A DNA stretch of 64,000 nucleotides from Nesterenkonia ebinurensis (GTDB lineage Bacteria > Actinomycetota > Actinomycetes > Actinomycetales > Micrococcaceae): positions 1 through 64,000 of the forward strand of contig NZ_VWNF01000047.1 of assembly GCF_008711175.1 (NCBI RefSeq). Direction: 5' to 3'. The translations under genes were made by a program, and so were the position numbers. This document shows positions 7,151 through 26,845 of this stretch, one piece after another. The notes beneath the pieces were generated by a model that saw only the letters and a list, made by a program, of their open reading frames with translations, was not told the origin of the DNA and ran no database searches. Each line of letters begins with the position of its first letter. The first letter of the stretch is position 1.

Positions 7151-7156
7151 CCCTAC

Positions 7157-7725: not shown

Positions 7726-8583
7726 ATGGCAGACCAGGACCAACAGCATCTGAGTTCGCTCAAGTCGTTCGTTCTGCGTGCTCGTCGCATCCGCGCTCAC
7801 TCCCTGGCGAAGGACGCCCGGCTTCTCGTGAAGCTGCACAATCCGCAGTTCAAGGTTCTCTTCACGCCGGCCACCGGAGCGATGAAGGTCGTGCTGGAGC
7901 TTCCTCCTGAGGAGCAGGTTGAGAGCGCAGCGGCCCGTGTCCGCCCACTGATCCTCAACGACGAGGACACCTATCACGCCAAGGTGATGAACGCTCTTCT
8001 CCACTTTGGCCGGAAGGGCAACCTGCCGGAAGAGGACATCAAGGTGCTGCGGGGATGGAAGAAGGAGTGGGCCAAGGTCAACCCGAAGGGAAAGACTCTC
8101 GGCTTCTACGAGGTGAGAGTTCAGATGCCGGAAGAGGCCGAGGCCCGGATCAGCGACAACGCCTTGGCCTTTTCCTGGATCTATGGAGACGTGGTTCACG
8201 CTGATGCCGCCCGGCGCGAGGAGGGGCGGATCTACGGAGTTGAAGAGCGTTTCAGAGCAGCTGTCCCTGTGGTCGTCCGACTCATGACGCTCGCTATGGT
8301 GACGCTCACTATCACGGAACGGTTGAACGCTCGCGGAGTTCTGCCTGACCTGGGTGGCGTCTTCGACGAGGACGTCGTCGTATCTGACGAGGCTCAGGAG
8401 GTAGAGACTCGCGTCTATGTAGCCGAGTACGACGAGAACGGAAACATCCCTGCTCCACCAGCGATGGATGAGGAGTTTGGAGAGGGATGGAAGCCTTTCG
8501 CAGAGGTCTTTGGCGCCTTAGCGCCCGGCCAAGAAGGTAGTCGAGAAGAACCAGAGGAGGCTTCTCCCTCCACCTCGGATTGA
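7726..8583 (+). CDS. Uncharacterised acidic protein between recombinases and relaxase
   Basis: I do not recognise this 285-residue protein. It begins MADQDQQHLSSLKSFVLRAR, has an alternating charged core with a segment FGRKGNLPEEDIKVLRGWKK, a hydrophobic helix near residue 185 (VVVRLMTLAMVTLTITERL), and a very acidic, low-complexity C-terminus (EEPEEASPSTSD). There is no signal peptide. Base composition looks lower in GC than the flanking recombinase and relaxase genes, suggesting separate acquisition. The start has GAAGG just upstream and a TACGCT box 7 nt before it. Confidence 0.65.
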   Translation: MADQDQQHLSSLKSFVLRARRIRAHSLAKDARLLVKLHNPQFKVLFTPATGAMKVVLELPPEEQVESAAARVRPLILNDEDTYHAKVMNALLHFGRKGNLPEEDIKVLRGWKKEWAKVNPKGKTLGFYEVRVQMPEEAEARISDNALAFSWIYGDVVHADAARREEGRIYGVEERFRAAVPVVVRLMTLAMVTLTITERLNARGVLPDLGGVFDEDVVVSDEAQEVETRVYVAEYDENGNIPAPPAMDEEFGEGWKPFAEVFGALAPGQEGSREEPEEASPSTSD

Positions 8584-8649
8584 GTTGCATCGGCGGAGCC
8601 TTCGCCGCATGGTGTGCCTCACGTGGAGCGGCGGCTTGCACCTAGCGTC

Positions 8650-11600: not shown

Positions 11601-12195
11601 GTCGGAGACCTTCGGTGCGCTCACCGCCGAGCTGCGCAGGGCGGAGGCCAACCACCACGACCTGGACCGGTTGTTCCCGCGCCTGGTCGCCGCGCGCGAC
11701 CTCGCCGACGCTGACGACCTCGCCTCGGTCCTGCACCACCGGCTCGCCCGCGCCACCACTCGCCCGGCCGGGTCCGGGCGCGCCCGCAAGAGCCCCAGGC
11801 TGATCGCTGGGCTCATCCCGCCTGCCCAGGGCAAGATGAGCGACGACATGCGTCACGCCCTCGATGAGCGGCGTGACCTGATCGAGCACCGAGCCGATAC
11901 CGTCCTCGACACCGCTCTCGACCAGGGCGCCGCCTGGATCACACCCCTTGGGACACCGCCGCGGACGGCAGCCCAGCGGCGGGCATGGCGCCGGCAGGCC
12001 AGGACGGTCGCGGCCTACCGCGACCGATACGGCATCACCGACGACACACCCCTGGGTGCTCTGCCCGCGTCGACCGCGCAGAAGATCGACGCCGCCCGCG
12101 CGAAGATCGCCCTCGACCACGCCAGCCGAATCATCAACAGCGCGCATGAGCCCACGACGCGTCGCACGCAGGAGCGGGACCCGCTCAGTCTGTAA
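8650..12195 (+). CDS. MobF-family (TrwC/TraI-type) relaxase-helicase
   Basis: This 1181-residue protein would nick the element at its transfer origin and unwind it for conjugation. The N-terminal relaxase domain starts MTVSMRVMSAGDGYKYLL, has the catalytic tyrosine region TRYYAEAGTPPG, and the three-histidine metal site FDHFDSRAGDPHLHTHVVI near residue 220. The C-terminal helicase has Walker A (VGPAGAGKTTAM, about residue 550), Walker B (LVIIDEASLAGTL) and the late helicase motif (GYAITAHRAQGVTVDTAHVL). ATG at 8650 matches the usual N-terminus; GTG at 8614 is in frame upstream. No type IV secretion genes are in the window, so the element is at least mobilizable. Confidence 0.93.
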   Translation: MTVSMRVMSAGDGYKYLLRSVAAVDGDRSLSTPLTRYYAEAGTPPGQWLGSGVAALGQGQLAVGDRVSEAQLQLLMGMGRDPITGDPLGLAFPSYKYVAERIDARIADLDASLSPGAKGEAVARIEVEETERATRRAVAGFDFTFSIPKSASALWAVADAGTQALIGEAHHAAVAEVVAFMEREVAATRTGATAGDGAVAQVDVTGLVATAFDHFDSRAGDPHLHTHVVISNKVPTALDGKWRSLDGRPMHAAVVALSELHEAVFADHMTRTFGVEWEARDMGRDRNPAWAISTVPEELVAEFSTRARHIDTETDRLIANYVSKHGRRPSPATIMKLRAQATLSTRPEKEVRSLADLTADWRTRATGVLGRDATTWAREVTENGKPLLLRADDVPLDAIGELGQTVVEVVGEKRSTWRRWNLMAEASRQTMGWRFATIQDREAVVGMIADAAEQASLRLTPPDLATSPVAFRRVDGTSVFRPKHSTVFSSELLLDAEDRLLDRSRTMTAPTVPVAAVEKTTARPDAEGRMLGEDQADALMKIAISGRVVDVLVGPAGAGKTTAMSALRQAWEKEHGAGSVVGLAPSAVAAQVLADDLRIATENTAKWWQNHLVHGEDFRAGQLVIIDEASLAGTLSLDRITHLAERAGAKVLLVGDYAQLQSVDAGGAFGLLVGDRDDAPELVDVHRFANAWEKTASLALRHGRTQVIDTYLDHDRVHDGDAEAMTDAAYIAWRADRERGLVSVLVAETRDHVTTLNQRARADLILEGTLKPGREVELNDGTISGVGDTIITRRNDRRLRNGTTWVRNGDTWTITDVRDDGSVTIRKTGRRFGGSIVLPASYVTDHVDLGYAITAHRAQGVTVDTAHVLVEPTTTRENLYVAMTRGKHSNRAYVILDRADEHAHPHPADDPDATGRSVLYGVLHHVGAELSAHETVTAEHEQWGTIAQLAAEYETIAGAAQHDRWVTLVRAAGLTSEQAEAVVESETFGALTAELRRAEANHHDLDRLFPRLVAARDLADADDLASVLHHRLARATTRPAGSGRARKSPRLIAGLIPPAQGKMSDDMRHALDERRDLIEHRADTVLDTALDQGAAWITPLGTPPRTAAQRRAWRRQARTVAAYRDRYGITDDTPLGALPASTAQKIDAARAKIALDHASRIINSAHEPTTRRTQERDPLSL

Positions 12196-12273
12196 TCACA
12201 TGAACCTGAAGCAGGCTTGGCCGATCCACAAGACCCGCACCACGCAGGTCCAGCCTCTGAGCGACCGTCTCGA

Positions 12274-13419
12274 TCACAGGCCCGTCACGGTGCCGTCGAT
12301 GGAGACGGGGGCTGGGTCGGGTTCGTTCACGTAGACCTGCGGCGGGGTCCAGGCGGCCCGCAGACGTCGCGCGCCCTGGTGGGAGGGGCCGAGCGCGAAC
12401 GAGTCGATCCTGGACGCGGCCTGGTCGGTGATCAGCTTCTCGGCGAACAGCAGGCGCGCCACCGGCCGCAGGACGCTGTCGTCCAGGCCCAGTCCCCGCA
12501 GTGGCGCCAGGGGATCGATCGGCCGCGCCATCCACCCCATCTGTTGACCGAGCAGCGAGGTGCCGAAGAGCCCGTCGGACAGCGCCCGCTGCCCGACCTC
12601 GTCGGCCGATATCCCATTGATGGAGGCGCGCATGGTCGAGCCTCGCTGCTCCTGGGTGACCAACGTCAGCCGCTCCTCATGACCGATCGTCGAGACGGTC
12701 CTAGTGGATAGCTCCACGATCTGCACCGGCAGCGCGGTATGAGGGGAGGCGAACGGGACACCGCCGGCCCGGTTGTCCCGCAGCCGCACCAGCTCGGCAT
12801 GGACCGCGTCGCTGCGCACCGCCGCGGTGAGCGAGATCGTCTTCCCGTCGTTGGTGATCTCCCGCGCACGAAACAGCGTCCGGCCCGCCCGCACCCACGG
12901 CGCCAGCTCCTCCGCAGCCAAGTCCTCCAGACGACGCCGCACCCGCCGACCGAGGTCGTCCGGGTCACTCCACGGACTCGTCGTGTACAGGTTGCGGGCA
13001 CCCTGGATCAGATCGCGCTGCGCACCATCCATCTCCCCGCCGGTCTCGCCGTGCACGAACAGGCACAGCCGCAAGCCGTTGCGCTCGGCCTCCAAGAACT
13101 CAGCATGCGTGGCCGAGTACCCGTCGGGCATCCGCACGCCGTAACGCGAACCCCACATGCCCACGTAGACCTCGGAGCTGCGAACCCCGGAGAGGTAGGC
13201 CTGCTCGGCCGAGATGTCCTGCGCTCCGAGATCCTCGAACATCACCGCCATCGCCCCGACCGACTCGATCGCTGCCCGCACCGCGGCCCGCTCGTCGGGC
13301 ATGTCGGTGATCAGGCTGGACACGAACACTCGCCGCCCGCTCGCCCACGCCCGCACATCCTCCCCGGCGGCAGCCAGGGAGGCCGAGCGCTGGTCGATCA
13401 GCAACGACGCATCATCCAT
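12274..13419 (-). CDS. DUF4062-domain protein
   Basis: The 381-residue protein carries an N-terminal DUF4062 domain (VFVSSLITDMPDERAAVRAA at about residue 31, followed by VYVGMWGSRYG and HAEFLEAERNGLRLCLFV). This Rossmann-like fold is common at the N-terminus of NLR-like and other conflict proteins and is distantly like TIR or deoxyribosyltransferase folds. The rest, with no recognisable ATPase, is alpha/beta and ends in a Pro-rich tail. The start has GAGG six bases upstream. Its place between the relaxase and an IetAS anti-phage pair makes a defence role plausible, but nothing in the sequence proves it. Confidence 0.8.
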   Translation of the reverse strand: MDDASLLIDQRSASLAAAGEDVRAWASGRRVFVSSLITDMPDERAAVRAAIESVGAMAVMFEDLGAQDISAEQAYLSGVRSSEVYVGMWGSRYGVRMPDGYSATHAEFLEAERNGLRLCLFVHGETGGEMDGAQRDLIQGARNLYTTSPWSDPDDLGRRVRRRLEDLAAEELAPWVRAGRTLFRAREITNDGKTISLTAAVRSDAVHAELVRLRDNRAGGVPFASPHTALPVQIVELSTRTVSTIGHEERLTLVTQEQRGSTMRASINGISADEVGQRALSDGLFGTSLLGQQMGWMARPIDPLAPLRGLGLDDSVLRPVARLLFAEKLITDQAASRIDSFALGPSHQGARRLRAAWTPPQVYVNEPDPAPVSIDGTVTGL

Positions 13420-13530
13420 GCCTCAAGTCCACCACGGACACGCCCAGACGCGGAGCGCACACGCGAGCCGCACACCCAGCGAGGGCGGGCGCCAGGTCAC
13501 CTTCGCCTCTTCCCGGTGTCTGCGCGGCGT

Positions 13531-13652
13531 CGTAAAGTAGTTCCTGAGGCGGCCTCTTATGCGGCGCTGTCGCTCCTCGCGACGGTATGACCTTCCCGGG
13601 AACGGGCGGTCCTTTCAGGTTCTTGTCGCCGAACCCTTGAAGAGGTCTGTCC
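13531..13652 (+). promoter_or_regulatory. Conserved leader upstream of small membrane protein, copy 1
   Basis: The 120 bases before the gene match the leader at 22990-23127 block by block. Shared blocks are GTAAAGT, GAGGCG, a GTCGC/GCGAC stem, GACC plus CCCGG plus AAC, and a block like GTCCTTTCAGGTTCTTGTCG just before the start. The GTCGC...GCGAC arms are kept while the loop between them differs (TCCTC here, CCCCAGC in copy 2), which favours a structured RNA. TAAAGT is also a plausible -10 box and recurs before ietA (14337). I do not recognise it as a named riboswitch. Confidence 0.55.
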
Positions 13653-14006
13653 ATGTTCCGACTTATCTGGGCTCTCAGCGTCCACACCCGCTACTTCCTG
13701 CGCCGCTACATGCCCACCAACGTCCTGCTCGACGCCATCCGCACCCGCCGCGGACTGCGCTGGGGCCTGCCGGCGATGCTGCTGACCATCTCGTACCTGT
13801 ACGCCGTGAACCTCTGCGTGCAACTCATCGCCGGCGGCGGTCCCGGGTGGCTGCACCTGCTCGTGCTGCTGTTCATCTACAACGCGATGAAGTTCGCCAT
13901 CATGGGACCGGTCAGCCTCGTCCTCCTGCTCCGCGCCCGCCTCCGCGAGCACGCCGCCCGCCGCCGCGAGCAGCGTGCCGACCACCGGCCTATGGTCGCC
14001 GCGTAG
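13653..14006 (+). CDS. Small two-helix membrane protein, paralogue 1
   Basis: The 117-residue protein starts MFRLIWALSVHTRYFLRRYM and contains two hydrophobic segments (WGLPAMLLTISYLYAVNLCV and WLHLLVLLFIYNAMKFAIMG running into VSLVLLL), with Arg-rich cytoplasmic flanks. Proteins of this kind occur on many actinobacterial plasmids and integrated elements and are often mislabelled sulfate permease. No catalytic motif is visible. It is paralogous to the protein at 23128-23511 and shares its leader. GAAGAGG lies about 7 nt before the start. Its function is unknown. Confidence 0.82.
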   Translation: MFRLIWALSVHTRYFLRRYMPTNVLLDAIRTRRGLRWGLPAMLLTISYLYAVNLCVQLIAGGGPGWLHLLVLLFIYNAMKFAIMGPVSLVLLLRARLREHAARRREQRADHRPMVAA

Positions 14007-14381
14007 GAGCGGGTGTGTGATGGGCGCGTACGTGAAAAGACCGCCCGGCGCCGCTACGACAGTTCACCGTCCGCGCGGTGCCCCGTGACCCGCCCGACCT
14101 GCACAAGCTCTGCGAAGCCCTGATCCGCCTCACCCTGCAAGAGGTCGGCCAGTCACGGGCGCACCGCCGCGCAGATGAGGCTCCCGAGACCTACCGGAGC
14201 CCAGGACAGCCGGACTCAGCACGAGAGAATGACTGAGCCCCGGCGACGTGACCGAGGTCAGAGGTCCACGGGGGCTTGCGGTGTTCAGGGTAGCCGCGGT
14301 GTCGGCGAGGCTCGCTAGCCTCAGAGCCGCCGCCGGTAAAGTAGTCAGCAAACGATGACGGGCAACTGAGGGAGGCAGACC
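14007..14381. other. Gap before ietA
   Basis: The first two thirds hold a possible frameshifted small gene (separate entry, 14020-14236). The remainder carries a promoter-like TAAAGT at 14337-14342 and the ribosome binding site GGGAGG for ietA. I see no RNA gene here. Confidence 0.5.
14020..14236 (+). pseudogene. Possible small helical protein, frameshifted in an A-run
   Basis: ATG at 14020, preceded by GGAG, opens MGAYVK. The frame that then looks protein-like is one base over and runs to TGA at 14234-14236, reading DRPAPLRQFTVRAVPRDPPD and LHKLCEALIRLTLQEVGQSR. Removing one A from the AAAA run at 14035-14038 joins the two into a 71-residue product resembling small proteins of actinobacterial conjugative elements. 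As written the frame is broken. A sequencing error, a real mutation or slippage would explain it. Confidence 0.42.
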
Positions 14382-15338
14382 ATGGCGCGTGCGGACCTGC
14401 TTCTGGACCTCGTCGAGGCCGAGCGCCGTGGCGATCGCGACCGCTTCCGCGTCCTCGTCGAAGCAGTCATCGCTGAGGAGCGAGCCAACCAGCATCATCT
14501 CGTCGCCGACCGCCTCTCCGAGCTGATCACCACCACCGGACAGAGCGCCCCGCGTGATGACCGCGCCGCAGCCATGCGTGACCTGGTGCAGGAGATCGTT
14601 CCTCATCGGCGCCTGGACGAGTTGGAGCTTGCTCCGGTACCGCACCGGGTCGTCACCGAGCTGATCGAAGAGCAGAAGCGCGCCGAGCTGCTGCGCAGCT
14701 ACGGGATCGAGCCCCGCAATCGACTGCTGCTGTCCGGCCCGCCGGGCAACGGCAAGACCAGCGTCGCCGAGGCCATCGCCTCGGAGCTGATGCTGCCGTT
14801 CTACGTCATCCGCTACGAGGGGGTTGTATCCAGCTTCCTGGGCGAGACCGCCGCACGGCTCGACAACGCCTTCGAGTTCGCCCGCACCCGCCGCTGCGTG
14901 CTGTTCTTCGACGAACTCGACACCATCGCCAAAGAGCGATCAGACGAGCACGAGACCGGGGAGATCAAGCGGGTGGTCTCGACCCTGCTGCTCCAGATCG
15001 ACCAGCTTCCCCCACATGTGCTGCTGGTCGGAGCGACCAACCACAGCGAACTTCTCGACCGGGCCGCGTGGCGACGCTTCCAGATTCGCGCTGAACTCGA
15101 ACCGCCCAGTCGTGCACAGGCCACCCGCTTCCTGGAACGCCTCGCCGCCCGCTTGGGCGGCGACCTCGGATTCGCCCCCCGGACCCTGGCGGACAAGCTC
15201 GCGGGAGCGAGCTTCTCCGAGCTGGAGGAGTTCGCGTTGGACGTGCGCCGCAGAGCCGTGCTCGACCTGCCCGACAGCAACCTCCGGCGGATCGTCCAGG
15301 AGCGTCTTGAGCACAGGCGAGATCAGGCGGCGGGGTGA
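14382..15338 (+). CDS. ietA: IetA, AAA ATPase of an IetAS anti-phage system
   Basis: The 318-residue protein is a single-domain AAA+ ATPase: a helical N-terminus of about 100 residues, Walker A (LLLSGPPGNGKTSVAEA, about residue 120), pore-loop-like YEGVVSSFLGETAARL, Walker B (CVLFFDELDTIA, about residue 174), sensor 1 (LLVGATNHSELLDRA), arginine finger (WRRFQI) and a small lid domain. It is followed by a subtilase gene whose start overlaps its stop (GTGA). An AAA ATPase directly coupled to a large S8 peptidase is the described IetAS anti-phage arrangement. The ATPase presumably controls or feeds the protease; the mechanism is not known to me. A strong GGGAGG ribosome binding site precedes ATG 14382. 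Confidence 0.85.
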   Translation: MARADLLLDLVEAERRGDRDRFRVLVEAVIAEERANQHHLVADRLSELITTTGQSAPRDDRAAAMRDLVQEIVPHRRLDELELAPVPHRVVTELIEEQKRAELLRSYGIEPRNRLLLSGPPGNGKTSVAEAIASELMLPFYVIRYEGVVSSFLGETAARLDNAFEFARTRRCVLFFDELDTIAKERSDEHETGEIKRVVSTLLLQIDQLPPHVLLVGATNHSELLDRAAWRRFQIRAELEPPSRAQATRFLERLAARLGGDLGFAPRTLADKLAGASFSELEEFALDVRRRAVLDLPDSNLRRIVQERLEHRRDQAAG

Positions 15339-17950
15339 CCGCGGAGCGCCGGCCGCTCCTGGCGTTCGGGTTGCCAACGGTGGTAGATCGGCCCAAACAA
15401 GGGACACCGAATATGCCGCGCGTGTCCAGACCCAGCGCCGGTCGGCAGGCGCAGCGGCTGACGCCGCAGTTTGGTGAGCTGAGCGCAGCGTTCGATGCCG
15501 AGCGGGCGCGTCTTTCCGCTGACACACCCGACGAGGTCGACCCGGCGCTGGTGGTCGTCTTCGACCTCGCCGGCAGCATCAAGGACTTCCGCAACGCGAT
15601 CGACCAGATCGACGGACTGGAGTTCCTGTCCGAGCTGATCGGAGATCAGTCCGACCCAGACGACGACTTCCACATGACCAAGTCCGAGAGCGGCCGCACG
15701 GACAAGCCCGTCCAGCACTCCCTGTACTTGATGATGTCGAATGCCAAGGCGATCGACGAACTCCTGCGCCTGTTCACCGCCTGGCAAGCAGACCCGTCAG
15801 CGAAATTCGCCTACGGCTTGGGCAAGTTCAAGAACGCGTTCCAGCAGCTCACCGCGATCCGACGGTGGGGACCAGAAGATCGCATCCGAGAGACCGGCCT
15901 GCGCGAGCAGTGGCAGGAGAACCTCGACGTGGTCGGTCAGTCCGTCAGCACCGTGATGGTCGAAGTCGAGCTGTGGTACCGCCGCGACGCCACACAGCGC
16001 ACCACAGCACAAGCACACGTCGAGCAGGTCATCTCCGACAGTGGCGGCCGTGTGCTCGACCGCTCCCAGATCGGCGAGATCAGCTACCACGCCCTGCTCG
16101 CGGAGCTGCCGATCCAACAGGTTCACTCGCTGCTGGCCTACGGGGCCGCGTCGATCCGGCTGCTGACCACCGACGAAGTCATGTTCGTCAACCCGTTCAC
16201 TCCCATGAGCGTCGCACCGCCGACCACAGAACCGGTCAGCGAGGTTCGCCTGCCACCCGGAGAACGCACCGACGGCCGGCCCAGAGTCGCCCTGCTGGAC
16301 GGATTGCCGTTTCCCAACCACGACGCCCTCGCCGGCCGGCTGGTCGTCGACGACCCCGACGGGCTCGGCGAGAACTACCCGCTGGCCGCGCGCCACCACG
16401 GCACCGCGATGGCCTCCCTGATCATCCACGGTGACCTCTCCGCCGACGGCGAACCGCTCGACCGGCCACTATATGTCCGGCCCATCATGCGACCCCACGA
16501 GTTCATGACAGGACACGAGCAGATCCTCCCGGACCGGCTGCTCACCGATCTGCTGCACCGCGCGGTGAAACGAATCGTCGAAGGAGAGGCCGGTCGGGGT
16601 CCGGTCGCGCCAAGCGTGCGCATCATCAACCTCTCCATCGGTGCGCAAGCCCGAGCGCTCGTGCGCCGGATGAGCCCTGTCGGACGGCTACTCGACTGGC
16701 TGGCCCACTCCTACAACCTGCTGTTCATCGTCAGCGCCGGCAACCACCTCGGCCCGCTCACGATCCCAGCCGATGCCACCAGTAACGCCGACGCGGCACG
16801 ATCCGCCGCGCTCCGGTCCGTCTACGACACCGCACTGCTGCGGGGCATCCTCCCTCCAGGCGACGCCCTCAACGCCCTGACCATCGGCGCCACCCACAGC
16901 GATGGACTCGGCGACATCGACGTGCCGGACACCGCCTGGGACATCACCCACCAGGACGGCCCAGCCCACTACGGCGCGACCGGCCCCGGGGTCGACCGCT
17001 CGGTCAAGCCCGACCTTCATTACATCGGAGGCAGGGCGCTCTACGCCCGCCCTGTCACACCGCCGGGCGGGCAGGCAACCGTCGCGGTGGAACTGGCTCA
17101 GACCGCAACCACCGGTCCAGGCCTGCAAGTAGCCGCGCCCGGGCGAGCGGGCGCAACCAACAACACCGTCTTCACCATCGGCACGAGCAACGCCACCGCG
17201 TTGGTGGCCCGCGAAGCCAGCCGCCTGTACGACATCCTCGAAGCCGGCTCCGACGATCCCGAAGACGTGCCGCTGCCGGACCCGCAGTACCACCCGCTGC
17301 TCGTGAGAGCACTCCTCGCCCACGCCAGCAGTTGGGGCGAATGGGAGGCGCGACTGCGCCGCGAACTCGGCCTCACCAACCAGCAAGCCCGCCGCCACCT
17401 GACCGCGCTCCTGGGGTACGGCCGGCTCGACACTGACCGGCTCGGAACCGCAGCCACGAACAGGGCAGTGCTGGTCGGCGGGGGACTGATCGCACGCGAC
17501 CAACGCCACACCTACGAGTTGCCGCTGCCGCCTTCGCTACGTGCACGCGCAGAGTGGCACCGCTTCACCATCACCCTCGCCTACATGGTCCCCACCGTCG
17601 GCCAGCTCAACCGCTACCGGGGCGCCAAGGTCTACTTCGCCACGCCAGACATGCAACTCGCCGGCGGCGACCGGATCGATGCCGAACACAACTCGGTCAG
17701 ACGCGGAAGCCTCCAACATGAGATCGTGCAGGGCACACGCACGATGGTGTTCGGCGACGATGGCACCTTCCCGATCCACGTCGAGTGCATGGACGATGCC
17801 CAACGGCTCGGCGCCGGCAAGACCGTGCGATACGCGCTCGTGGTGTCCGTAGAGACCGCGGAGCAGACATCGACCACCATCCATGACGAGGTACGGGCGA
17901 GACTGCGCCAGCAGGTTCGCGATCGCGCACGCGGTCGGGTGCAGAGCTGA
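15335..17950 (+). CDS. ietS: IetS, S8 (subtilisin-like) peptidase of an IetAS anti-phage system
   Basis: This 871-residue protein has a long N-terminal region without a signal peptide and a central subtilase domain. The triad residues are visible: Asp322 (VALLDGLPFPN), His355 (ARHHGTAMASL) and Ser618 (IGTSNATAL), with the oxyanion asparagine in SAGNHLG. An extra beta-rich C-terminal domain follows (LPLPPSLRARAEWHRFTITL). The absence of a secretion signal points to a cytoplasmic protease, as expected for immunity rather than nutrition. GTG 15335 overlaps the ietA stop by 4 bp. A later start in the same frame near 15412 (ATG) is possible but would break the coupling. Confidence 0.86.
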   Translation: MTAERRPLLAFGLPTVVDRPKQGTPNMPRVSRPSAGRQAQRLTPQFGELSAAFDAERARLSADTPDEVDPALVVVFDLAGSIKDFRNAIDQIDGLEFLSELIGDQSDPDDDFHMTKSESGRTDKPVQHSLYLMMSNAKAIDELLRLFTAWQADPSAKFAYGLGKFKNAFQQLTAIRRWGPEDRIRETGLREQWQENLDVVGQSVSTVMVEVELWYRRDATQRTTAQAHVEQVISDSGGRVLDRSQIGEISYHALLAELPIQQVHSLLAYGAASIRLLTTDEVMFVNPFTPMSVAPPTTEPVSEVRLPPGERTDGRPRVALLDGLPFPNHDALAGRLVVDDPDGLGENYPLAARHHGTAMASLIIHGDLSADGEPLDRPLYVRPIMRPHEFMTGHEQILPDRLLTDLLHRAVKRIVEGEAGRGPVAPSVRIINLSIGAQARALVRRMSPVGRLLDWLAHSYNLLFIVSAGNHLGPLTIPADATSNADAARSAALRSVYDTALLRGILPPGDALNALTIGATHSDGLGDIDVPDTAWDITHQDGPAHYGATGPGVDRSVKPDLHYIGGRALYARPVTPPGGQATVAVELAQTATTGPGLQVAAPGRAGATNNTVFTIGTSNATALVAREASRLYDILEAGSDDPEDVPLPDPQYHPLLVRALLAHASSWGEWEARLRRELGLTNQQARRHLTALLGYGRLDTDRLGTAATNRAVLVGGGLIARDQRHTYELPLPPSLRARAEWHRFTITLAYMVPTVGQLNRYRGAKVYFATPDMQLAGGDRIDAEHNSVRRGSLQHEIVQGTRTMVFGDDGTFPIHVECMDDAQRLGAGKTVRYALVVSVETAEQTSTTIHDEVRARLRQQVRDRARGRVQS

Positions 17951-18006
17951 TGCGCCCGCGAAGCGAGCGGGCGCTGCTCACACATTTGCGAAGCGAGTCG
18001 CTGTGA
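17950..18006 (+). other. 18-codon leader ORF and hairpin between ietS and the SIR2 gene
   Basis: An ATG overlapping the ietS stop (TGATG, 17948-17952) opens MRPRSERALLTHLRSESL, and its TGA (18004-18006) overlaps the GTG start of the SIR2 gene at 18003. The segment also holds an 8-bp perfect stem (17952-17959 with 17967-17974, loop GAAGCGA) and the 10-base direct repeat GCGAAGCGAG. It could couple translation of the SIR2 protein to ietS. There is no T-run, so it is not an ordinary terminator. Confidence 0.4.
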
Positions 18007-21000
18007 ACACCGACGATGCAGACTTCGACGCACGTCTGGCGCACTCAACAGGGATGATCCGGTCGTTCGGTGCATTTGCAGTCATCGGCGCGGGCCTCTC
18101 CGCTGGTGGATACCCCATGACGGCCCAACTTCCCCCGCTACTTTGGCAGGCAATCGAGACTGTCCCCGACGCTCTTACTGCGCTACGCGAAAATTCGGGC
18201 ACCCCCGGTAGTGCGAAAGAGATCCTGTCCTCAGATGGCAATGCATTGCAGGAGGGGTGGCGACTAGTCCGAGCATTTCCCCTTGTTAGGAAAGCGTTCC
18301 AGGAGGCGTTCACCGCACTTGACGCTGACCGCGAGCCGTCTAGCGCACACTTCGATCTTGCCCGTCTCATCAATAGCAGGCACGTGGAGGGAGTGGTGTC
18401 CTTCAACTGGGACACCTGTCTGGAGCGAGCACACGAGCGCATGTTCGGAGTCGGACTGGCTCCCGGAATACTTCACAAGCCGCACGGCGACGCGGCCCAT
18501 CCAGAAGGTGAATGGGTGCTCCCAGACGAGGAGGGGCAAGTTCCCGCCGGCGTGCTCAGCCACGTTGTCCAGTTGTCAGATCGGCCGCGAACGCTCCTTG
18601 TGCTCGGGTACAGCGGCAGCGACGCAGCGGTTGTGGAGTCGCTGCTAGCTCCACTGGAGGAGCGATGGCCCGTTGTGCGAATTAGTCCTTCTGCCTCGGG
18701 AGAGGGAGCACTCCGCGGCACGGCGGATGCCATCCTCTCCTCTGTCACATCGCAACTTGCTCCTCCAGACCCGCTCAGTGGTTGGAAGTACGTCACTTTC
18801 CTACGGAGCAGAAGTTTCCTCGCGGCACTGCGAGGCGAGCGCCTTCGCCCCACAGACGTGAACGCCTGCCCCGAGCTGCCTGCTGTTTCGAGGCTCGCGG
18901 AGCGATTGTCAACTTCAAGGTTCGCAACTCTGTCGGGCTCAAGCGGTACCGGTAAGTCCATCACCGCATTTCACGCTGCGCGCCGCCTCAACCGCGACGG
19001 CTGGAAGGTGCTCGAACTGAAGCAGGCCGGAGTCGCCACCACGACTGACGTTGACGAATTCACTCGGCTGCGCGGTCCTGTACTTGCGGTCGTCGATGAT
19101 GCTCAAGCGATAGACCGAAGCGTAATCGCACTTCTCGAGTCATCTGTCGACGACGATCATGCGGTCCTGTTGGTCTCAACTGAACGGCTTGAAGCACGCG
19201 ACGGCGAGACCCTTCTCGCAAGCCAGGCCGTAGAAGTCCTGAATGCATACTGCCGATCCAATATCGCTGACGTCGGTCCACTGCTAACTCAACTTGACGA
19301 TCGAGTGCGGTGGTCCGTGTTCTCCGACACCCCGGAACAGCGGCTCGAACTCGCGGTCCGCACAGGCACGGAACCTTGGCTGTATATGTTCGTAGCGTCC
19401 GGTGGTGAACGTCGCATTACAGGTTCGCTCGATCGCGCAGTTGAAGACATCGATGCTGCCCTCGTACTTGCCTTCATCTGCGTAGCGCAGATGACATCGC
19501 GCGATGCTGGGGTCACGAGAGGGGAACTCGAATCGACCGCAGGGAAACTCGCGCCAACGCGCTTCTCCATGGACGGCTCGCTTGGGACCGATCGCATTGA
19601 TCGCGCCCTCCTGTTCCTCGCCAACGACAGACTCATCCGCGAACATGACGGCCGTATTCGCGCTTCGCACATTCGCGTCGCTGAGCGGGCTCTACAGAAC
19701 TTGGGCCAACGGGAAGACTCGGGAATCGGGTCGATTGTGCGTCAGTGCGTACGTGCGGCTCTTCTTGACGAGAAGATAGACGCAGCAGGGAAATTCTGGC
19801 TTCTTCGAGTGTTCGACCGGATCGACGTTTACCGCTATCGCTGGGCTAGCGTCATCCTCGACGAGGAAGTCTCGTCAACTCTAGTGGAACAGTGCTTAAG
19901 TGCCGACCCAGGGAGTGACCGCGGCGTCGCGCTCAACCTGGTTTGGACTTCGGAGTGGTTTCATGAACTGTCCGAGACGGCCGCAGAGGAGCTTGCCAGC
20001 GGCATCATCGACTGGTTACCGGCGATGACGTCTGAAGAAGCCAACGGTTACAGATGGATTCTCAGCGGACTTCGTTCGCACCACGAAGCCGCCTACGAAC
20101 GCATCCGCGACGCCATCCCAGCGCGTTTGATTGCTGCGAGGCTGTCGATGGCTGGAAATCGCCGGGCTGCGATGGACTGGACCCATGTTATCCAGGAACT
20201 CTGTCCAGACTGGCGAACCGGAAATCTACATACTTGGAGCGATGAGTTCGAGGGAGCTATCGACTCTGATGCCCTCGCGCGGTGGTTGTCTGATCGCGAT
20301 TCACGCTCGCACCCACTTGAGGTTTACGACCTCATCGATGCGCTCGCCTCCATTGCTCCTCGGACGGCAGGAACGGTGTTTGCGGTCTGTGCCGATGAGA
20401 TCCGTGATGCGATGGAGCATGACCTCGCTGATGCGGCCAGCAACTTCGCTGATTGGGTGTTCGGCACGATGCTTATCGTTGCCATGCTCGCAGATGCGCC
20501 ATCAGCAAGAGATGCCGAAGATTACGAGGATGAGCGCGAAGCTCACGAATCTGATGGCGCTCGTGCAGATTTCATGGAAGCCAAGGAGCCCGCCCTTCGT
20601 GAACTCGCTGATGCTGTCCTCCGTGTGATGCAGAAGGTCGATTGGAGGACTGCCGCGAGGTCTCTTGAGTCGAAGAGGAAGTACCAGCTTCACAATCTGG
20701 ACATGCTGCTCGGCTGGCTCTCTTACCTGTCGACCGACATCACGGACGAGATAGCGACGAACCTGTCGACCGAATGGCTCCTAAGTATTGTTGCCGCAGC
20801 GCGGCAAGAGGAATGGCCGAAGGGCCGTCCGTTCGGCGCCATTGACCACCTGCTTCATCATCTCTCGTTCGGAAAACAAGGAGCGGCCGTGGTGCGTGGG
20901 TTCCTGATGGAACACGAGAACGAGATCGAACCGTTCCCCTCCACGCTCGTGCGGCTCTACCCCGACCTTGCAGTCCGGTGGCTCCGCCAGGGGCGCCTCG

Positions 21001-21398
21001 TAGAGGTTCACGGTCCGCGAGGTTCCGGGTGGAGCCGCCTCACCGCTGACTTGGAGACCGTCGCGTCGATTGATCGCGACGTTGCAGCGAGCTGGCTCGA
21101 TCAGATGTCTGATGAGTTGCTCGCCGCGCTCAACCAACCGCAGAAGCATGACTTGGCCGGGGTGGCACGCTTTGTCTCCCTTGCGGACGATCTGAATTCG
21201 TCCGCGCTCGACTCGGTCATTGCACGACTCGATAGCGAGATCACGCAGAAGAGTTGGCCAGCGAGATGGGAAGACTCGCGCGATGCTCTACGCCCCGTGC
21301 TCCAGCGAGTCTCGAGAGTTGACTGCCCCGAGGCCGACCGAGCGTTGACGCTACTGCGTGATGAGGAGTCTGCCACGATAGCTGGCGGAGACGGCTGA
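18003..21398 (+). CDS. SIR2-STAND (NLR-like) protein, probable NAD-depleting anti-phage sensor
   Basis: The 1131-residue protein has an N-terminal SIR2-like domain (FAVIGAGLSAGGYP near residue 28, VVSFNWDTCLERAHERM, HKPHGD and LLVLGYSGSDAAVVESLL) and then a P-loop NTPase (ATLSGSSGTGKSITAFHAAR near residue 315; Walker B VLAVVDDAQ). About 650 residues of helical repeat-like sequence follow and probably sense the trigger. This SIR2 plus STAND layout is known from bacterial abortive-infection proteins that destroy NAD+ on phage infection. GTG 18003 was chosen because it overlaps a leader ORF and no better start precedes the SIR2 fold. GC content looks clearly lower than in ietAS, suggesting separate origin. 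Confidence 0.83.
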   Translation: MNTDDADFDARLAHSTGMIRSFGAFAVIGAGLSAGGYPMTAQLPPLLWQAIETVPDALTALRENSGTPGSAKEILSSDGNALQEGWRLVRAFPLVRKAFQEAFTALDADREPSSAHFDLARLINSRHVEGVVSFNWDTCLERAHERMFGVGLAPGILHKPHGDAAHPEGEWVLPDEEGQVPAGVLSHVVQLSDRPRTLLVLGYSGSDAAVVESLLAPLEERWPVVRISPSASGEGALRGTADAILSSVTSQLAPPDPLSGWKYVTFLRSRSFLAALRGERLRPTDVNACPELPAVSRLAERLSTSRFATLSGSSGTGKSITAFHAARRLNRDGWKVLELKQAGVATTTDVDEFTRLRGPVLAVVDDAQAIDRSVIALLESSVDDDHAVLLVSTERLEARDGETLLASQAVEVLNAYCRSNIADVGPLLTQLDDRVRWSVFSDTPEQRLELAVRTGTEPWLYMFVASGGERRITGSLDRAVEDIDAALVLAFICVAQMTSRDAGVTRGELESTAGKLAPTRFSMDGSLGTDRIDRALLFLANDRLIREHDGRIRASHIRVAERALQNLGQREDSGIGSIVRQCVRAALLDEKIDAAGKFWLLRVFDRIDVYRYRWASVILDEEVSSTLVEQCLSADPGSDRGVALNLVWTSEWFHELSETAAEELASGIIDWLPAMTSEEANGYRWILSGLRSHHEAAYERIRDAIPARLIAARLSMAGNRRAAMDWTHVIQELCPDWRTGNLHTWSDEFEGAIDSDALARWLSDRDSRSHPLEVYDLIDALASIAPRTAGTVFAVCADEIRDAMEHDLADAASNFADWVFGTMLIVAMLADAPSARDAEDYEDEREAHESDGARADFMEAKEPALRELADAVLRVMQKVDWRTAARSLESKRKYQLHNLDMLLGWLSYLSTDITDEIATNLSTEWLLSIVAAARQEEWPKGRPFGAIDHLLHHLSFGKQGAAVVRGFLMEHENEIEPFPSTLVRLYPDLAVRWLRQGRLVEVHGPRGSGWSRLTADLETVASIDRDVAASWLDQMSDELLAALNQPQKHDLAGVARFVSLADDLNSSALDSVIARLDSEITQKSWPARWEDSRDALRPVLQRVSRVDCPEADRALTLLRDEESATIAGGDG

Positions 21399-21899
21399 GG
21401 GGATGCGGTCGAACTTGTCGCACCAGTGGCTGCGGGCGAAGTGGACCAATGAGGTGACCAACAGCTTGCAAACCCTGCAAGACGAGACATCCAGAGCAAT
21501 CGGCTGAAACGCAAAACCCCAGGTCAGGGGCGGGAGGGTCGTCGATTCCGGCACCTGGGGGATAAGGGGTACAAGCCCCCCGCCAGTCGGCCCGAACAAC
21601 TGAATATGAACGTCACGGGCTGTGGCGCAGCTTGGTAGCGCACATGACTGGGGGTCACGGGGTTCAGGAAGCCGAATCGGTCTGGCTTCTCGGGCCGGCA
21701 GCTGAGCACGGCGCAGAAGATCGACCAGGCCTGAGCATAGGCTGCGTTCCGCCAGCTCGCTCCCGAGTCGGAAGCCCGCCAGCATCACCAGTCCGCCCCA
21801 GTACACTCGTGATCCAGCTTGTATGCCCCGCCGTGACCGGCGAGTCAGGGGCACTATCGAGTCAGGGTCGCGAACACACGTATCAGTCGACTGGCGTGT
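21399..21899. other. 500-base gap with tRNA-Pro fragment
   Basis: No protein gene was found. The gap holds an 8-bp inverted repeat (CCCCAGGT at 21517-21524 with ACCTGGGG at 21553-21560) and a truncated tRNA-Pro at about 21616-21665. This suggests a patchwork of former insertion or attachment sites between the SIR2 gene and the dprA-like gene. Confidence 0.5.
21616..21665 (+). tRNA. Truncated tRNA-Pro (GGG) remnant, possible attachment site
   Basis: The sequence from CGGGCTGTGGCGCAGCTTGG through the D-arm and anticodon loop (CTGGGGG) matches the 5' two thirds of an actinobacterial tRNA-Pro with anticodon GGG. The anticodon stem has one mismatch (CATGA against TCACG). After about 21658 the variable loop, T-arm and acceptor 3' strand are missing or scrambled. 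It cannot be a working tRNA. Integrating elements commonly target tRNA genes, so this is probably a relic of an attachment site. Confidence 0.6.
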
Positions 21900-22913
21900 T
21901 CACAGCGAGAGGCCATCGCGCCCACCGGTGCAGCGGGCATGGTCACGAGAGAGCGTCGAACCGAGCGGCGGGCGCTGCGGACTTTCGAGGAGAGCTTCCC
22001 GCATGTGGAGCATGTTGATGATTTCTCCGGCGTGAGTGACGATCCGCGCCCGCTGCTCGCCAATGAGCTGGTGAGGGCCCGCACTGGCGGCGCTGGTCAC
22101 CGCACCAGGCACCGCGCCGACATTGCGATCCAGCTCGTGAGCTTGCCGGGCGGTGTGCCGGGCACCAGAGCGTGCCCCCGCCTCGACCACGACGGTCGTG
22201 TTCGACAACGCGGCCAGAAGCCTGCCCCGTGCCAAGAACCGGTGCCGGGTCGGCGACGCACCCGGCGGCGTCTCACTGACCAGCAGCCCGACCCCAGCGA
22301 TCTGATCGAGAAGGTCACGATGCCCTGCCGGGTAGGACCGATCGATACCGCCGGCGAGGATTGCGATCGTATCTCCGCCGGCAGCCAGTGCGGCGCGGTG
22401 CGCAGCACCCTCGATCCCGTACGCACCACCGGCGACGACCACCCGCCCATCGCGGGCCAGATCAGTGGCGATCTCCCCGGCAACACGCTCACCGTATGAG
22501 GTGGCGGCTCGGGAACCGGTGATCGTCAGTAGGTCCGTCACCGGACGCGACAGGAACGACGCTGCCCCGCGCGTCCACAGCACGAACGGTTCCCGGTCAT
22601 ACAGGTCTCCCAGTGACGCCGGCCAGTCCCGGTCGCCGGGGACCACTACACCAGTCCCGGACGCCTCGACAGCGCGGAGGCGCCCGGCCAGCTCGTCGGG
22701 CCGTGACGCCGCGCTCAACCGGTCGCGCCAGACCTGCGCATCGACCCGGCCCATGCCCGGTACCTTCCCCTCGCTCTCCAGGAGCCCCAGCATTTCCACC
22801 CCACCCAGGCGAGACAGCAACCGCCCCGTCACTGCATCGTCGGGCTCAGCCAGCATCGATAACATCATCCGCGCCGTGCGGTCATCCTTCGCAAGATTGC
22901 TGAACGAGGTCAT
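21900..22913 (-). CDS. DprA-like DNA-processing protein
   Basis: The 337-residue protein has the DprA/Smf Rossmann fold (LLTITGSRAATSYGERVAGE, then VVVAGGAYGIEGAAHRAALA, TIAILAGGIDRSYPAGH and LARGRLLAALSNTTVVVEA) after a helical N-terminus of about 110 residues. DprA binds single-stranded DNA and loads RecA during uptake of DNA. Element-borne homologues like this may instead handle incoming conjugative single strands or take part in defence. ATG 22913 has GAGAGGA upstream. It lies within the element and differs from a housekeeping dprA, which would sit next to topA or a Mg-chelatase-like gene. Confidence 0.8.
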   Translation of the reverse strand: MTSFSNLAKDDRTARMMLSMLAEPDDAVTGRLLSRLGGVEMLGLLESEGKVPGMGRVDAQVWRDRLSAASRPDELAGRLRAVEASGTGVVVPGDRDWPASLGDLYDREPFVLWTRGAASFLSRPVTDLLTITGSRAATSYGERVAGEIATDLARDGRVVVAGGAYGIEGAAHRAALAAGGDTIAILAGGIDRSYPAGHRDLLDQIAGVGLLVSETPPGASPTRHRFLARGRLLAALSNTTVVVEAGARSGARHTARQAHELDRNVGAVPGAVTSAASAGPHQLIGEQRARIVTHAGEIINMLHMREALLESPQRPPLGSTLSRDHARCTGGRDGLSL

Positions 22914-22989
22914 GATCGGGGTCCTCTCGGTGAGACGTCACCGAGGAGGTACGCGCGTAGCGACGGGGTTCCGCATGTCCGCTGTCGGG

Positions 22990-23127
22990 AGTAAAGTGGA
23001 AACAAGTAGAGGCGACTTTCATCAATGTGTCGCCGTCGCCCCCAGCGCGACGGCACGACCGCCCGGAACCACCTCGGGTAGTCCTTCAAGGTTCTTTGTC
23101 GCCAGAACTGTGGAGAGGACTGCCGTC
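22990..23127 (+). promoter_or_regulatory. Conserved leader upstream of small membrane protein, copy 2
   Basis: This is the partner of the leader at 13531-13652. It keeps GTAAAGT (22991), GAGGCG, the GTCGC...GCGAC stem with a changed loop, GACCGCCCGG, and the block GTCCTTCAAGGTTCTTTGTC before AGAGGACTG and the start codon. It also has an additional GGCGAC/GTCGCC pairing that copy 1 lacks. Confidence 0.55.
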
Positions 23128-23511
23128 ATGTTCCGACTCATCTGGGCCGCCAGCGTTCACACCCGGTACTTCCTGCGCCGGTATATGCCCACCAACATCT
23201 TGCTTGATGCCATCCGCACCCGTCGCGGCCTCAAGTGGGGCGTGCCCGTCATGCTTCTGGCGATCCCGTATCTCTACGTCGCCGGCATCCTCACCGTGGT
23301 CATCCGGGACGGCGGACCCGGATGGCTCAACCTGCTGGTGATCCTCGCTATCTGGAACGCTTTGAAGATGATCTGGATCGGCCCGATCAGCCTTGTCCTC
23401 TTGGTGCGTGCACGTCTTCGAGAGCTAAGTGAGCGCCGCGCGTCGTGGGCATCCGCCTCATCGGCCGGTGAGAGCCAGAACCTCGCCGACGCTGCAGTCG
23501 GGGCGCACTAA
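23128..23511 (+). CDS. Small two-helix membrane protein, paralogue 2
   Basis: The 127-residue protein begins MFRLIWAASVHTRYFLRRYM and is close to the protein at 13653-14006 through both hydrophobic segments (VPVMLLAIPYLYVAGILTVV and LLVILAIWNALKMIWIGPIS), differing mainly in a longer polar tail. ATG 23128 has GGAGAGGA upstream. The gene ends 26 bases before the convergent ABC-F stop. With copy 1 it forms a direct repeat of about 500 bp in the same orientation bracketing the ietAS, SIR2 and dprA-like genes. Its function is unknown. Confidence 0.82.
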   Translation: MFRLIWAASVHTRYFLRRYMPTNILLDAIRTRRGLKWGVPVMLLAIPYLYVAGILTVVIRDGGPGWLNLLVILAIWNALKMIWIGPISLVLLVRARLRELSERRASWASASSAGESQNLADAAVGAH

Positions 23512-23537
23512 GACTGTCCGCACAGCGACCCTGCCTG

Positions 23538-25334
23538 TCAGTCGACGGACTCAGACAGCTCTAGCCACCGCTCCTCCAACTGCGCCACTTCGGCCTCCAT
23601 CTCGCGCAGTTCGTCAGTGTGATGCTGTAGGCCTTCATAGTCGCTCTGGTCGTGCTCGGCCAGGCGCCGGTGTACCGTCTCGATGCTGCCTGACACCTTC
23701 TCTAGCCGGCGCTCGATCGCGCTGATCTCCTTCTGGGCCGCTCGGCGCTCCGCACCGGACAACCCCGACGCGTCCTCAGGCTCAGTTGACGTCGTCGCGA
23801 GGTCGGGCCTGTCGGTCGGCGTGCTCGCCTGCTCCTGCCGCAGCCGCAAGTACTCATCGACCCCGCCCGGCACATGCCGCAGCCGACCGTCCAAGATCGC
23901 ATACTGCTGATCGGTGACCCGCTCCAACAGGTACCGGTCATGGGACACCACGATCAACGTTCCTGGCCAGGAATCCAGCAGATCCTCCATCGCGGTGAGC
24001 ATCTGAGAATCAACGTCGTTCGTAGGTTCATCTAGAGCGATGAGATTAGGTTCGCTCAGCAGCAACAGCAGTAGTTGCAGCCGCCGCTTCTGGCCTCCGG
24101 AGAGATCGTCGACGCGCGCGGAGAGATGTTCACGAGCGAAACCAAGACGTTCGAGCAACTGCGCCGGGGTGTGGTCCTTGCCGTCGATCGTGAACGTGGT
24201 CTTGGTCCGGGCCAGCACCTCACGTACTCGGTCGCCCTTGATCTCGTCGAGTTGGGAGAACTGCTGGTCCAGCACACCGACACGAACCGTCTTGCCGACC
24301 TTGACCCGCCCGGTCGTCGGCTGGAGGGTGTCGCAGATCAATCCCAACAGGGTCGACTTGCCCGCCCCGTTCGCCCCCAGGATGCCGGTGCGCTCACCGG
24401 GCGCGAGCCGCCAGGTGATGTCCCGCAGCACCTCATGGTCACCGAAGCTCACCGAGACGTCCTCGATGTCCACCACATCCTTGCCCAGCCGGGCCACGGC
24501 AAGGCGCTGCAACTCGATCGGGTTGCGCACCGGGGGAACGTCCTCGATCAACTGGTTCGCCGCATCGATGCGGAACTTCGGCTTGGATGTACGGGCCGGC
24601 GCGCCGCGGCGCAGCCACGCCAGTTCCTTGCGCATGAGGTTCTGCCGCTTCGCCTCGGTCGCCGCGGCCATCCGGTCGCGTTCGACCCGCTGGAGCACAT
24701 AGGAGGCGTACCCGCCCTCGAACGGCTCCACGATCCCGTCATGGACCTCCCACGTCTCAGTGCACACCTCGTCCAGGAACCACCGGTCGTGGGTGATCAC
24801 CAGCAGGCCACCGGTGTTCTTCGCCCACCGGCGCTTCAGGTGCTCGGCCAGCCAGGCGACGCCCTCCACGTCCAAGTGGTTCGTCGGCTCGTCCAGCGCG
24901 ATCAGGTCCCAGTCGCTCACCAGCAGCGCGGCCAGGGCGACCCGGCGCCGCTGCCCACCGCTCAGCTCGCCGATCTTCGCCTCCCACGGGATATCGGAGG
25001 CCAAGCCGCCGATCACGTCGCGGATGCGCGCATCACGCGCCCACTCGTGTTCCGGCCCATCGCCCACGATCGAGCGGCCGACCGTCTCATCGGCGTCGAG
25101 GTCGTCGCGCTGATCCAGCACCCCGAACCGCACGCCACTTCGACGTGTCACCCGGCCCGCGTTCGGCTCGATCTGTCCCGACAACATCCCCAGCAGGCTC
25201 GACTTGCCGTCACCGTTGCGACCGACGATCCCGATCCGATCGCCCTCCTCCAACCCAAGAGTCAACGACTCGAACACCACCCGCGTCGGGTACTCCAAGC
25301 TGAGCCCCTCGGCTCCAAGCAGATGCGCCGCCAT
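23538..25334 (-). CDS. ABC-F family ATPase carried by the mobile element
   Basis: This 598-residue soluble protein has two ABC domains and no membrane segments. The first has GIVGRNGDGKSSLLGM, LSGGQRRRVALA and LIALDEPTNHLD; the second has GILGANGAGKSTLLGL, LSGGQKRRLQLL and LIALDEPTNDVD. An inter-domain linker and a C-terminal coiled coil (about residues 525-598) complete the ABC-F layout. Such proteins act on ribosomes, either in translation or antibiotic protection. It closely resembles the host ABC-F that the element disrupted (both begin with an AHLLGAEG segment). Its ATG shares a base with the stop of the truncated host frame (TGATG at 25336-25332), so expression may ride on the host promoter. 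Confidence 0.9.
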   Translation of the reverse strand: MAAHLLGAEGLSLEYPTRVVFESLTLGLEEGDRIGIVGRNGDGKSSLLGMLSGQIEPNAGRVTRRSGVRFGVLDQRDDLDADETVGRSIVGDGPEHEWARDARIRDVIGGLASDIPWEAKIGELSGGQRRRVALAALLVSDWDLIALDEPTNHLDVEGVAWLAEHLKRRWAKNTGGLLVITHDRWFLDEVCTETWEVHDGIVEPFEGGYASYVLQRVERDRMAAATEAKRQNLMRKELAWLRRGAPARTSKPKFRIDAANQLIEDVPPVRNPIELQRLAVARLGKDVVDIEDVSVSFGDHEVLRDITWRLAPGERTGILGANGAGKSTLLGLICDTLQPTTGRVKVGKTVRVGVLDQQFSQLDEIKGDRVREVLARTKTTFTIDGKDHTPAQLLERLGFAREHLSARVDDLSGGQKRRLQLLLLLLSEPNLIALDEPTNDVDSQMLTAMEDLLDSWPGTLIVVSHDRYLLERVTDQQYAILDGRLRHVPGGVDEYLRLRQEQASTPTDRPDLATTSTEPEDASGLSGAERRAAQKEISAIERRLEKVSGSIETVHRRLAEHDQSDYEGLQHHTDELREMEAEVAQLEERWLELSESVD

Positions 25335-26845
25335 CAGGCCACCCCCACCCGATCGCCGGCCCCACGACCACGATCACGACTACCTCCGCACTGTCCGAAT
25401 CGCCCGCTCAGCCGGGAAATCCGCGCCTCACAGCGGTAAGATGAAGGAGTCCGATCCCAATACCCTGTCGGAGTGTTCGGCTCATCGAGCATCAGCACGT
25501 TCGGTTCTCCGGTGAGCAGCTTCAGCAGCTGCAGCCGGCGGCGCTCCCCGCCGGAGAGATCACCCACCGGGGTCCACTGCCGGGACCGGCTGAAGCCGAG
25601 GGTCTCCAGCAGCTGGGCCCCAGAAAGCTCCTTGCCACCGACGTCGAACACAGACTTCTCCTCGGTCATGACCTCCAGGGTGCGCATATGTTCACGCTCA
25701 CGCAGTTCGGTGACCTCCTGAGTGAGGATCGCGGTGCGTACCGTCTTGCCCCGCTTGACCCGGCCCTCTGTCGGCTCCAGCTGGCCGTCGAGCAGACGCA
25801 GCAGGGTGGACTTGCCGGCCCCGTTGACCCCGACGACGCCGACCCGCTCACCAGGGCCAAGCCGGAACGTGACATTGTCGAACAGCAGCGGACCGGACTC
25901 ACCGGCTCGATAGGTGATCTCTTCCAGATCGAGAACATCCTTGCCGAGCCGGGCGGTGGCCATCTTCTTCAGCTGGACCTCATCGCGGTGGACGGGAACA
26001 TCGTTGATCAGAGTGTTGGCGGCATCGATCCGGAACTTGGCCTTAGTGGTGCGTGCCGGTGCGCCGCGGCGCAGCCAGGCCAGCTCCTTCTTCACCAGCT
26101 GCTGACGCTTCTGCTCCTCCACGGCTGCGGCCCGGTCTCGCTCGGCCCGGGCCAGGGTATAGGCGGCGTACCCACCCTCGAAGTGGTCCACCGCGGCGTC
26201 GTGCACCTCCCAGGTGCTGGTGCAGACCTCGTCCAGGAACCAGCGGTCGTGGGTGACCACCAGGAAAGCCGTTTGCTCCCCTCCCGAGCCGCGCCGCGCG
26301 CGCCTCGGTGCCCCGGTCGCTCTCTTATGACCTGCTGGTGTTCGAGACTTTATATGCTCTGCCAACCAGGCCACCCCCTCCACATCCAGGTGGTTGGTGG
26401 GTTCGTCCAGCATGATCACCTCATGCTCGGCCATCAGCAGCGCCGCCAGCGCTACCCTGCGCCGCTGGCCGCCGGAGAGCGCCCCAACCTCGGTTTCCCA
26501 GCCGAGTCCGCCCAGCAGTCCCTCAGCAACGTCCCGCTTGGCCGGGTCGGTGGCCCACTGGTGGTCGGCGGCGTCACCCAGCACCGCGGTACGAACGGTG
26601 CTGAGGTGGTCCAATGTGTCCTGCTGGTCGAGGAACCCCACGGAGACCCCGCCGCGCCAAGTGACCCTGCCTGCATCGGGCTCGGCGGTCCTGGCCAGGA
26701 TCCGCATCAAAGTGGACTTACCGTCACCGTTGCGGCCCACAATGCCGATCCGGGCCCCGGAGTCGATCCCGAGGGTAATGCTCTCAAGTACTTTGCGTGT
26801 GCCGAAGGAGATGGAGACGCCTTCAGCACCGAGGAGATGAGCCAT
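25334..26845 (-). pseudogene. Chromosomal ABC-F ATPase truncated by the mobile element
   Basis: The host protein starts MAHLLGAEGVSISF at 26845 and keeps 456 residues: a complete first ABC domain and the second domain as far as NVLMLDEP. The frame then crosses the element junction at about 25476 and adds 47 foreign residues beginning NTPTGYWDRTPSSY. The lost part includes the rest of LDEPTNDLD, the H-switch and any C-terminal domain, so the second site should be dead. There is also an in-frame insertion of about 20 Arg/Gly-rich residues (TPAGHKRATGAPRRARRGSG) before VVTHDRWFLDEV in the first domain. The missing 3' end should lie at the left end of the element, outside the window. Confidence 0.85.

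Follow-up and report, generated by a model that had tools for sequence, protein, structure and literature searches.

Junction, element ends and gene content

The window analysed here, a stretch of 64,000 nucleotides, is the start of contig C46 in the 3.74-Mb draft genome of Nesterenkonia ebinurensis, which is assembled in 50 contigs. It contains the right part of an element, ending against the 5' half of a host ABC-F gene; the integrase end of the element and the 3' half of that gene are on contig C14. The features are as follows, in window coordinates unless C14 is named.

1..25477, no strand: right part of the element, with the integrase end and the host 3' half on contig C14
8614..12195, plus strand: MobF/TrwC relaxase-helicase
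21900..22913, minus strand: DprA-like protein
23538..25334, minus strand: intact element-borne ABC-F of 598 aa
25334..25477, minus strand: leader of 47 element codons and a TGA, in frame with the host gene
25465..25477, no strand: element-side arm of an attP-like inverted repeat, AACACTCCGACAG in gene sense (by eye)
25478..26845, minus strand: 5' half of the host ABC-F, cut after the NBD2 Walker B codons (MLDEP)
25479..25484, no strand: crossover region TGAGCC in gene sense
C14:14805-15329, minus strand: 3' half of the host ABC-F
C14:15338-16834, plus strand: serine integrase of 498 aa

The host ABC-F frame starts at 26845 on the minus strand, and the P codon of LDEP, the last before the cut, occupies 25478-25480. 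The frame then continues through the leader codons (25337-25477) to a TGA at 25336-25334 that overlaps by one base (TGATG) the ATG of the next gene at 25334-25332. This gene encodes an ABC-F with two ABC_tran domains and ABC_tran_CTD, the PF16326 C-terminal domain being found in it. The initial annotation had described a frame cut after MLDEP that reads 47 foreign codons and stops at the ATG of an intact, homologous ABC-F, and this description held. The host 5' half is 57% identical to the carried ABC-F over 455 aa and 77-87% identical to uninterrupted genes in 14 of 29 genomes of the same genus. By eye, its neighbours are genes that we take to encode a TauE-like protein, ispE, rsmA and tatD. 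A match to the cut gene was found in 58/58 genomes searched, this genome included. The empty site that the initial annotation proposed to look for was found within the genus: in G015 the gene is uninterrupted (L075 6159-8000), LMLDEPTNDLDTDTLAAMEDLL is contiguous, and a protein kinase gene lies on one side with TauE-like and ispE genes on the other. The host NBD1 carries an extra stretch, RTPAGHKRATGAPRRARRGSGGEQTAF, at about 26265-26360, where most relatives have RWK.EGAF; a similar stretch is present in G015.

The missing 3' end of the host gene, for which the initial annotation had also proposed a search, was located by searching the same genome with the element's ABC-F (match C14:14814-15320). 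It begins at the same codons (GEPTNDLDTDTL) and adjoins the integrase. Contig C14 also bears what we take, by eye, to be glmU and prs, and these two genes flank the ABC-F locus in relatives. In Brevibacterium sp. W7.2 (G434), whose chromosome is closed, the C14 and window proteins both have relatives in one stretch of about 53 kb, which sits between two halves of an ABC-F gene. Because G434 has both protein sets together, C14 and C46 most likely represent opposite ends of a single element; there is no sequence join between them. The crossover region TGAGCC is common to both element ends. The direct repeat suggested by the initial annotation (GATGAGCCGA) thus held only in part, the common sequence being shorter. 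An imperfect inverted repeat has one arm at each element end, AACACTCCGACAG in the window and CTATCGGAGTGCTT on C14, as in attP (by eye). The attachment sites of the integrase are inferred from junctions only.

Could the junction be an assembly or sequencing artefact, as the initial annotation allowed? In favour of this, the draft assembly consists of 50 contigs, with the element divided between C46 and C14. Against it, the same arrangement occurs in separate assemblies, including the closed chromosome of G434 and a 1.1-Mb contig in G436, the missing 3' half lies beside the integrase on C14, and an uninterrupted gene with matching neighbours exists in the same genus. We regard an artefact as all but excluded.

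The integrase matches Pfam PF00239 and PF07508 above cut-off, and with these Resolvase N-terminal and Recombinase domains it meets the criterion for a large serine recombinase. Contig C14 also encodes a TraG/VirD4-type protein, and the MobF relaxase in the window has a relative in the G434 element. The gene set of an integrative and conjugative element (ICE) is complete across the two contigs, and relatives of these genes occur together in the closed G434. By gene content the element is an ICE; its excision and transfer are inferred. The integrase and the ABC-F of the window are 99% identical to those of Tamaricihabitans, which suggests recent transfer.

The element carries other genes. IetA and IetS, a known anti-phage system, lie at 14382-17947 (PADLOC E 1.7e-145 and 0) and are followed by a STAND-type NTPase of 1171 aa (17883-21395); together these are probably defence cargo, a reading inferred from sequence alone. 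The DprA-like protein is also found in the elements of G024 and G434. At 405-5362, within the element part, lie an MFS transporter, a TetR-type regulator, a C5 cytosine methylase and a tyrosine recombinase. A small ORF (RYMPTN.LLDAIRTRRGL.WG.P) occurs twice in the element, at 13653-14003 and at about 23154-23511, the second copy adjoining the ABC-F; a relative of it is present in G194.

Integrase targets and recurrence of the arrangement

An integrase match at E <= 1e-60 was found in 9 of 396 genomes of the order, this genome included. In seven of the eight others the 3' part of an ABC ATPase, starting from DEPT, adjoins the integrase start; the exception, G388, has the most remote integrase of the set (34% identity). 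A scan of genome contigs for the integrase gave 30 loci, several from the same genomes, and two of them were unreadable (L109, with 83 nt before the integrase, and L127, with 29 nt). In 26 of the 28 readable loci, the integrase adjoins an ABC ATPase 3' half that begins with the Walker B codons; the assignment rests on tblastn to ABC-F for 12, on NCBIfam ABC models for 13 and on inspection by eye for L115. The NCBIfam models match from the Walker B position onwards in 13 of the 14 loci tested with them. The one without a match, L129, is doubtful, being ABC-like by eye with a frame break at the junction and a 3' part that no NCBIfam model matched. L107 (Tamaricihabitans halophyticus) is in a gene without ABC motifs. 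Where the integrase is at least 74% identical, 13 of 15 readable loci are in ABC-F genes (exceptions L107 and L118); the 13 readable loci of remoter integrases have mostly transporter ATPases as targets, with ABC-F-type genes in three (L122, L128, L132). Although the sites are inferred from junctions, we consider it very likely that relatives of this integrase target DNA coding for the ABC Walker B motif. Brevibacterium sp. CS2 (G333, L104-L105, about 1500 to 26280) has a 24.6-kb element of the remoter-integrase type in an ABC ATPase, with ABC ATPase genes near its right end on the opposite strand.

For the closest subfamily, 18 genomes were examined: 15 searched with the element ABC-F, together with this genome, G024 and G194. 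In 12 of them an ABC-F 5' half ends at the cut and a full-length element ABC-F comes after it (G000, G024, G429, G431, G432, G433, G434, G435, G436, G439, G440 and G441). The cut is at the first Walker B in G024 and G433 and at the second in the other ten, and in G431 a gene that by eye encodes an AAA-like ATPase lies between the cut half and the element ABC-F. No integrase was found for the G024 element, the best match being 26%. Replacement is not the only state, since in two genomes the ABC-F is carried at other targets: in G194 (Actinotalea caeni) the element is inserted in a transporter ATPase, and in G428 (Tamaricihabitans) in a non-ABC gene, with an ordinary full-length ABC-F, 50% identical, elsewhere in the genome. 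G437 (Leucobacter celer) and G438 (Microbacterium lacticum) each have a full-length ABC-F, with an extra 3' half next to the integrase; the two 3' halves of G438 are 99.4% identical (531 nt). It is possible that these two elements restore only the 3' half. The loci of G430 and G442 end at contig edges.

Twelve direct junctions are available, from 11 of the 12 replacement genomes (all but G431) and from G428. Between the P of DEP and the ABC-F start there are 134, 137, 143 or 146 nt, leader lengths differing by multiples of three, and the leader has 44-48 codons in 11 of the 12. In as many, the stop overlaps the ABC-F start by exactly one base (TGATG, TAATG or TAGTG); in G436 the read-through stop ends 5 nt before it. 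In both G194 and G431 (2/2) the stop shares an ATGA with the start codon of the intervening gene, so that an overlap is found at 13 of 14 junctions, despite varied leader length and sequence. These 14 are not all independent, as members of a clade are related. The 12 leaders contain one internal stop in the host frame (G436) and ten in each of the other frames. Shuffled leaders were open in 24-43% of trials, so an open leader is not rare by itself; what exceeds chance is the recurrence of the exact stop/start overlap. The overlap suits different targets because the integrase site fixes the codon phase. A conserved leader peptide was rejected, since 10 leader pairs gave no excess of third-position changes. 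What is conserved is the open frame and the position of its stop, not the peptide, and this is what coupling, itself inferred, would need.

Ancestry and function of the carried ABC-F

In a tree of 52 proteins, the 14 element ABC-Fs form two clades, of 10 and 4 members (two label changes), and none of the nine cut host genes falls inside either. The G431 host gene groups with Leucobacter celer and the G429 host gene with that of G434; the smaller element clade has as its sister the G441 host gene, which sits on a long branch, as do G430 and G432. The tree does not include the host halves of G433, G435 and G439, which are short or in pieces, the native L063 or the cut half of G024. Host and element copies within one genome are 57-78% identical. 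Because the element ABC-Fs group separately from the cut host genes, in two clades of their own, they are very likely inherited cargo and not captured host genes. The statement of the initial annotation that the element captures a host ABC-F gene therefore failed, the more so as the gene is also carried at other targets (G194, G428).

A rival view is that the element basically restores 3' ends, and that the whole ABC-F arose at its end by recombination with host genes. The full-length ABC-F and spare 3' half of G437 and G438 speak for it, as does the C14 3' half, which is a mosaic of host-like and foreign parts. Against it stand the two clades without any cut host gene and the low identity of the copies in one genome, and we consider this origin very unlikely. 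In the C14 mosaic, the eight best matches of the NBD2 end are native genes of the genus (92-97% identity), and the nearest genes to the C-terminal domain come from Gulosibacter and Leucobacter celer (62-68%). Past this 3' half, C14 encodes an AraC-type regulator and a DUF4143 protein, and the same locus (L041) has another ABC-F 3' end, which is decayed (C14:10590-10797) and adjoins the kinase gene. From the mosaic and decayed 3' ends we infer that an element, perhaps one of the 3'-restoring type, may have entered this gene before. In the same genus, the ispE-glmU interval holds two ABC-F types that are about 60% alike (L075, L076 and L080 versus L077, L078 and L079). Two types at one locus make past displacement possible, and the core gene between the ispE and glmU regions may once have been displaced.

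The carried ABC-F passes no cut-off among the best 25 of 201 NCBIfam models, the nearest miss being NF000355 (347 against a cut-off of 380; the ordinary G015 gene scores 359). An identity as a resistance ABC-F is unsupported, no curated resistance cut-off being passed among these 25, and with it the suggestion of the initial annotation that the replacement could deliver altered ribosome protection. The best models are EttA (360 against 599 bits) and Uup (317 against 900 bits), and the ordinary G015 gene scores alike; the models predict a place for both ABC-Fs near EttA and Uup, with no cut-off passed among these 25. In E. coli, uup mutations change the precise excision of transposons. By analogy, it is conceivable that an element with a Uup-like ABC-F might affect its own stability.

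The carried ABC-F might instead be no more than ordinary cargo, such as a gene for ribosome protection whose place at the element end is fortuitous, the host gene simply being lost. Its presence at other targets in G194 and G428 supports this, and many resistance ABC-Fs do travel on mobile elements. However, no resistance ABC-F cut-off was passed among the models shown, and the cut gene is itself an ABC-F in 12 of 18 genomes, with the in-frame stop/start overlap kept. Ordinary cargo is, in our view, unlikely.

The predicted attachment-site score averages 17.7 bits at 14 element NBD2 sites and 36.3 bits at 28 native sites, a difference that looks strong initially. When only shared residues were compared in windows over the whole gene, 30 of 302 windows were as extreme, and recoding of the attachment site in the element ABC-F is no more than a suggestion. 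The sequences also fall into two clades and are not independent.

Proposed mechanism and comparison with known systems

The sites, the frame, the overlap, their recurrence and the separate ancestry of the carried ABC-F are shown. Co-transcription, translational coupling and functional replacement are inferred, without expression data. We propose that insertion takes place at a site made up of conserved-motif codons, and this position keeps the reading frame at the junction the same each time. The element end is an open leader in that frame; its stop overlaps the start of the element gene that follows, which is normally a complete ABC-F. Transcription from the host promoter, with ribosomes arriving from the truncated host frame, would then allow the element ABC-F to be expressed instead of the broken gene. 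No consensus sigma-70-type promoter was found in 25200-27200, which lends weak support to use of the host promoter; other promoter types are not excluded by this search. According to the initial annotation, the element disrupts an ABC-F gene yet provides a full-length substitute, positioned for translation by coupling. This idea is supported because the arrangement recurs in other genera with the frame and the stop/start overlap kept; coupling and function remain inferences. Inferred as it is from sequence alone, the explanation as a whole, in which the element cuts an ABC-F at Walker B and supplies a replacement through a coupled leader, is likely to be correct.

A bolder reading, towards which we lean by a narrow margin, is that a protein motif serves as the address, the integrase recognising DNA that encodes ABC Walker B so that the frame of entry is set beforehand, that the leader evolved as an in-frame adapter passing host ribosomes on to the element's full-length paralogue, that the host is made dependent on the element, and that the element's own copy is not a target. 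For this last part, immunity, the element copy would differ at the site by synonymous changes and, in some copies, by S or A instead of T. If this reading is true, an element can insert into the core of a housekeeping gene and yet preserve its function. Supplying a whole gene would open far more of the genome to insertion and could make the element hard to lose, and a core gene could be displaced by a paralogue through horizontal transfer. An integrase reading a motif common to so large a gene family might also find use in genome engineering.

In the open-access literature searched, no account was found of serine integrases addressing Walker B codons or of replacement of the whole target gene. 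The search took in PMC10083194, PMC6579920, PMC5526665 and PMC2791158, without preprints or supplements and with few subscription papers, and the novelty of the system is provisional given this scope. A survey of site-specific and multi-targeting large serine recombinases, enzymes of the same class as the present integrase, groups target genes by cluster (PMC10083194); the words ABC and ATP-binding are absent from its main text, its supplements not being covered. Among actinobacterial phages, for example Gordonia phage Mellie, 139 records have serine integrases that match the present one with a coverage of at least 80%, all below 60% identity and 20 of them at 35-37%.

Known elements keep the damage small by inserting at gene ends and regenerating a few codons, whereas here a catalytic core is cut and a whole gene is supplied. 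The present element is not of the kind that restores only the end of its target, since the host reading frame terminates at a stop codon and a complete gene of its own comes after it. SXT/R391 resembles the present element as an ICE in a conserved, translation-associated gene, since it enters the 5' end of the translation-factor gene prfC (PMC2791158). It supplies new 5' coding sequence to prfC; SXT/R391 uses a tyrosine integrase, has one target gene and is not known to supply a second full-length gene. BreLI, an example of the elements that restore the 3' end of their target, is like the present element an actinobacterial ICE in a coding gene, found at the 3' end of a ribonucleotide reductase gene with a 12-bp repeat (PMC6579920). 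While BreLI sits at the end of its gene, the present element cuts the catalytic core of its target, and a whole paralogue follows.
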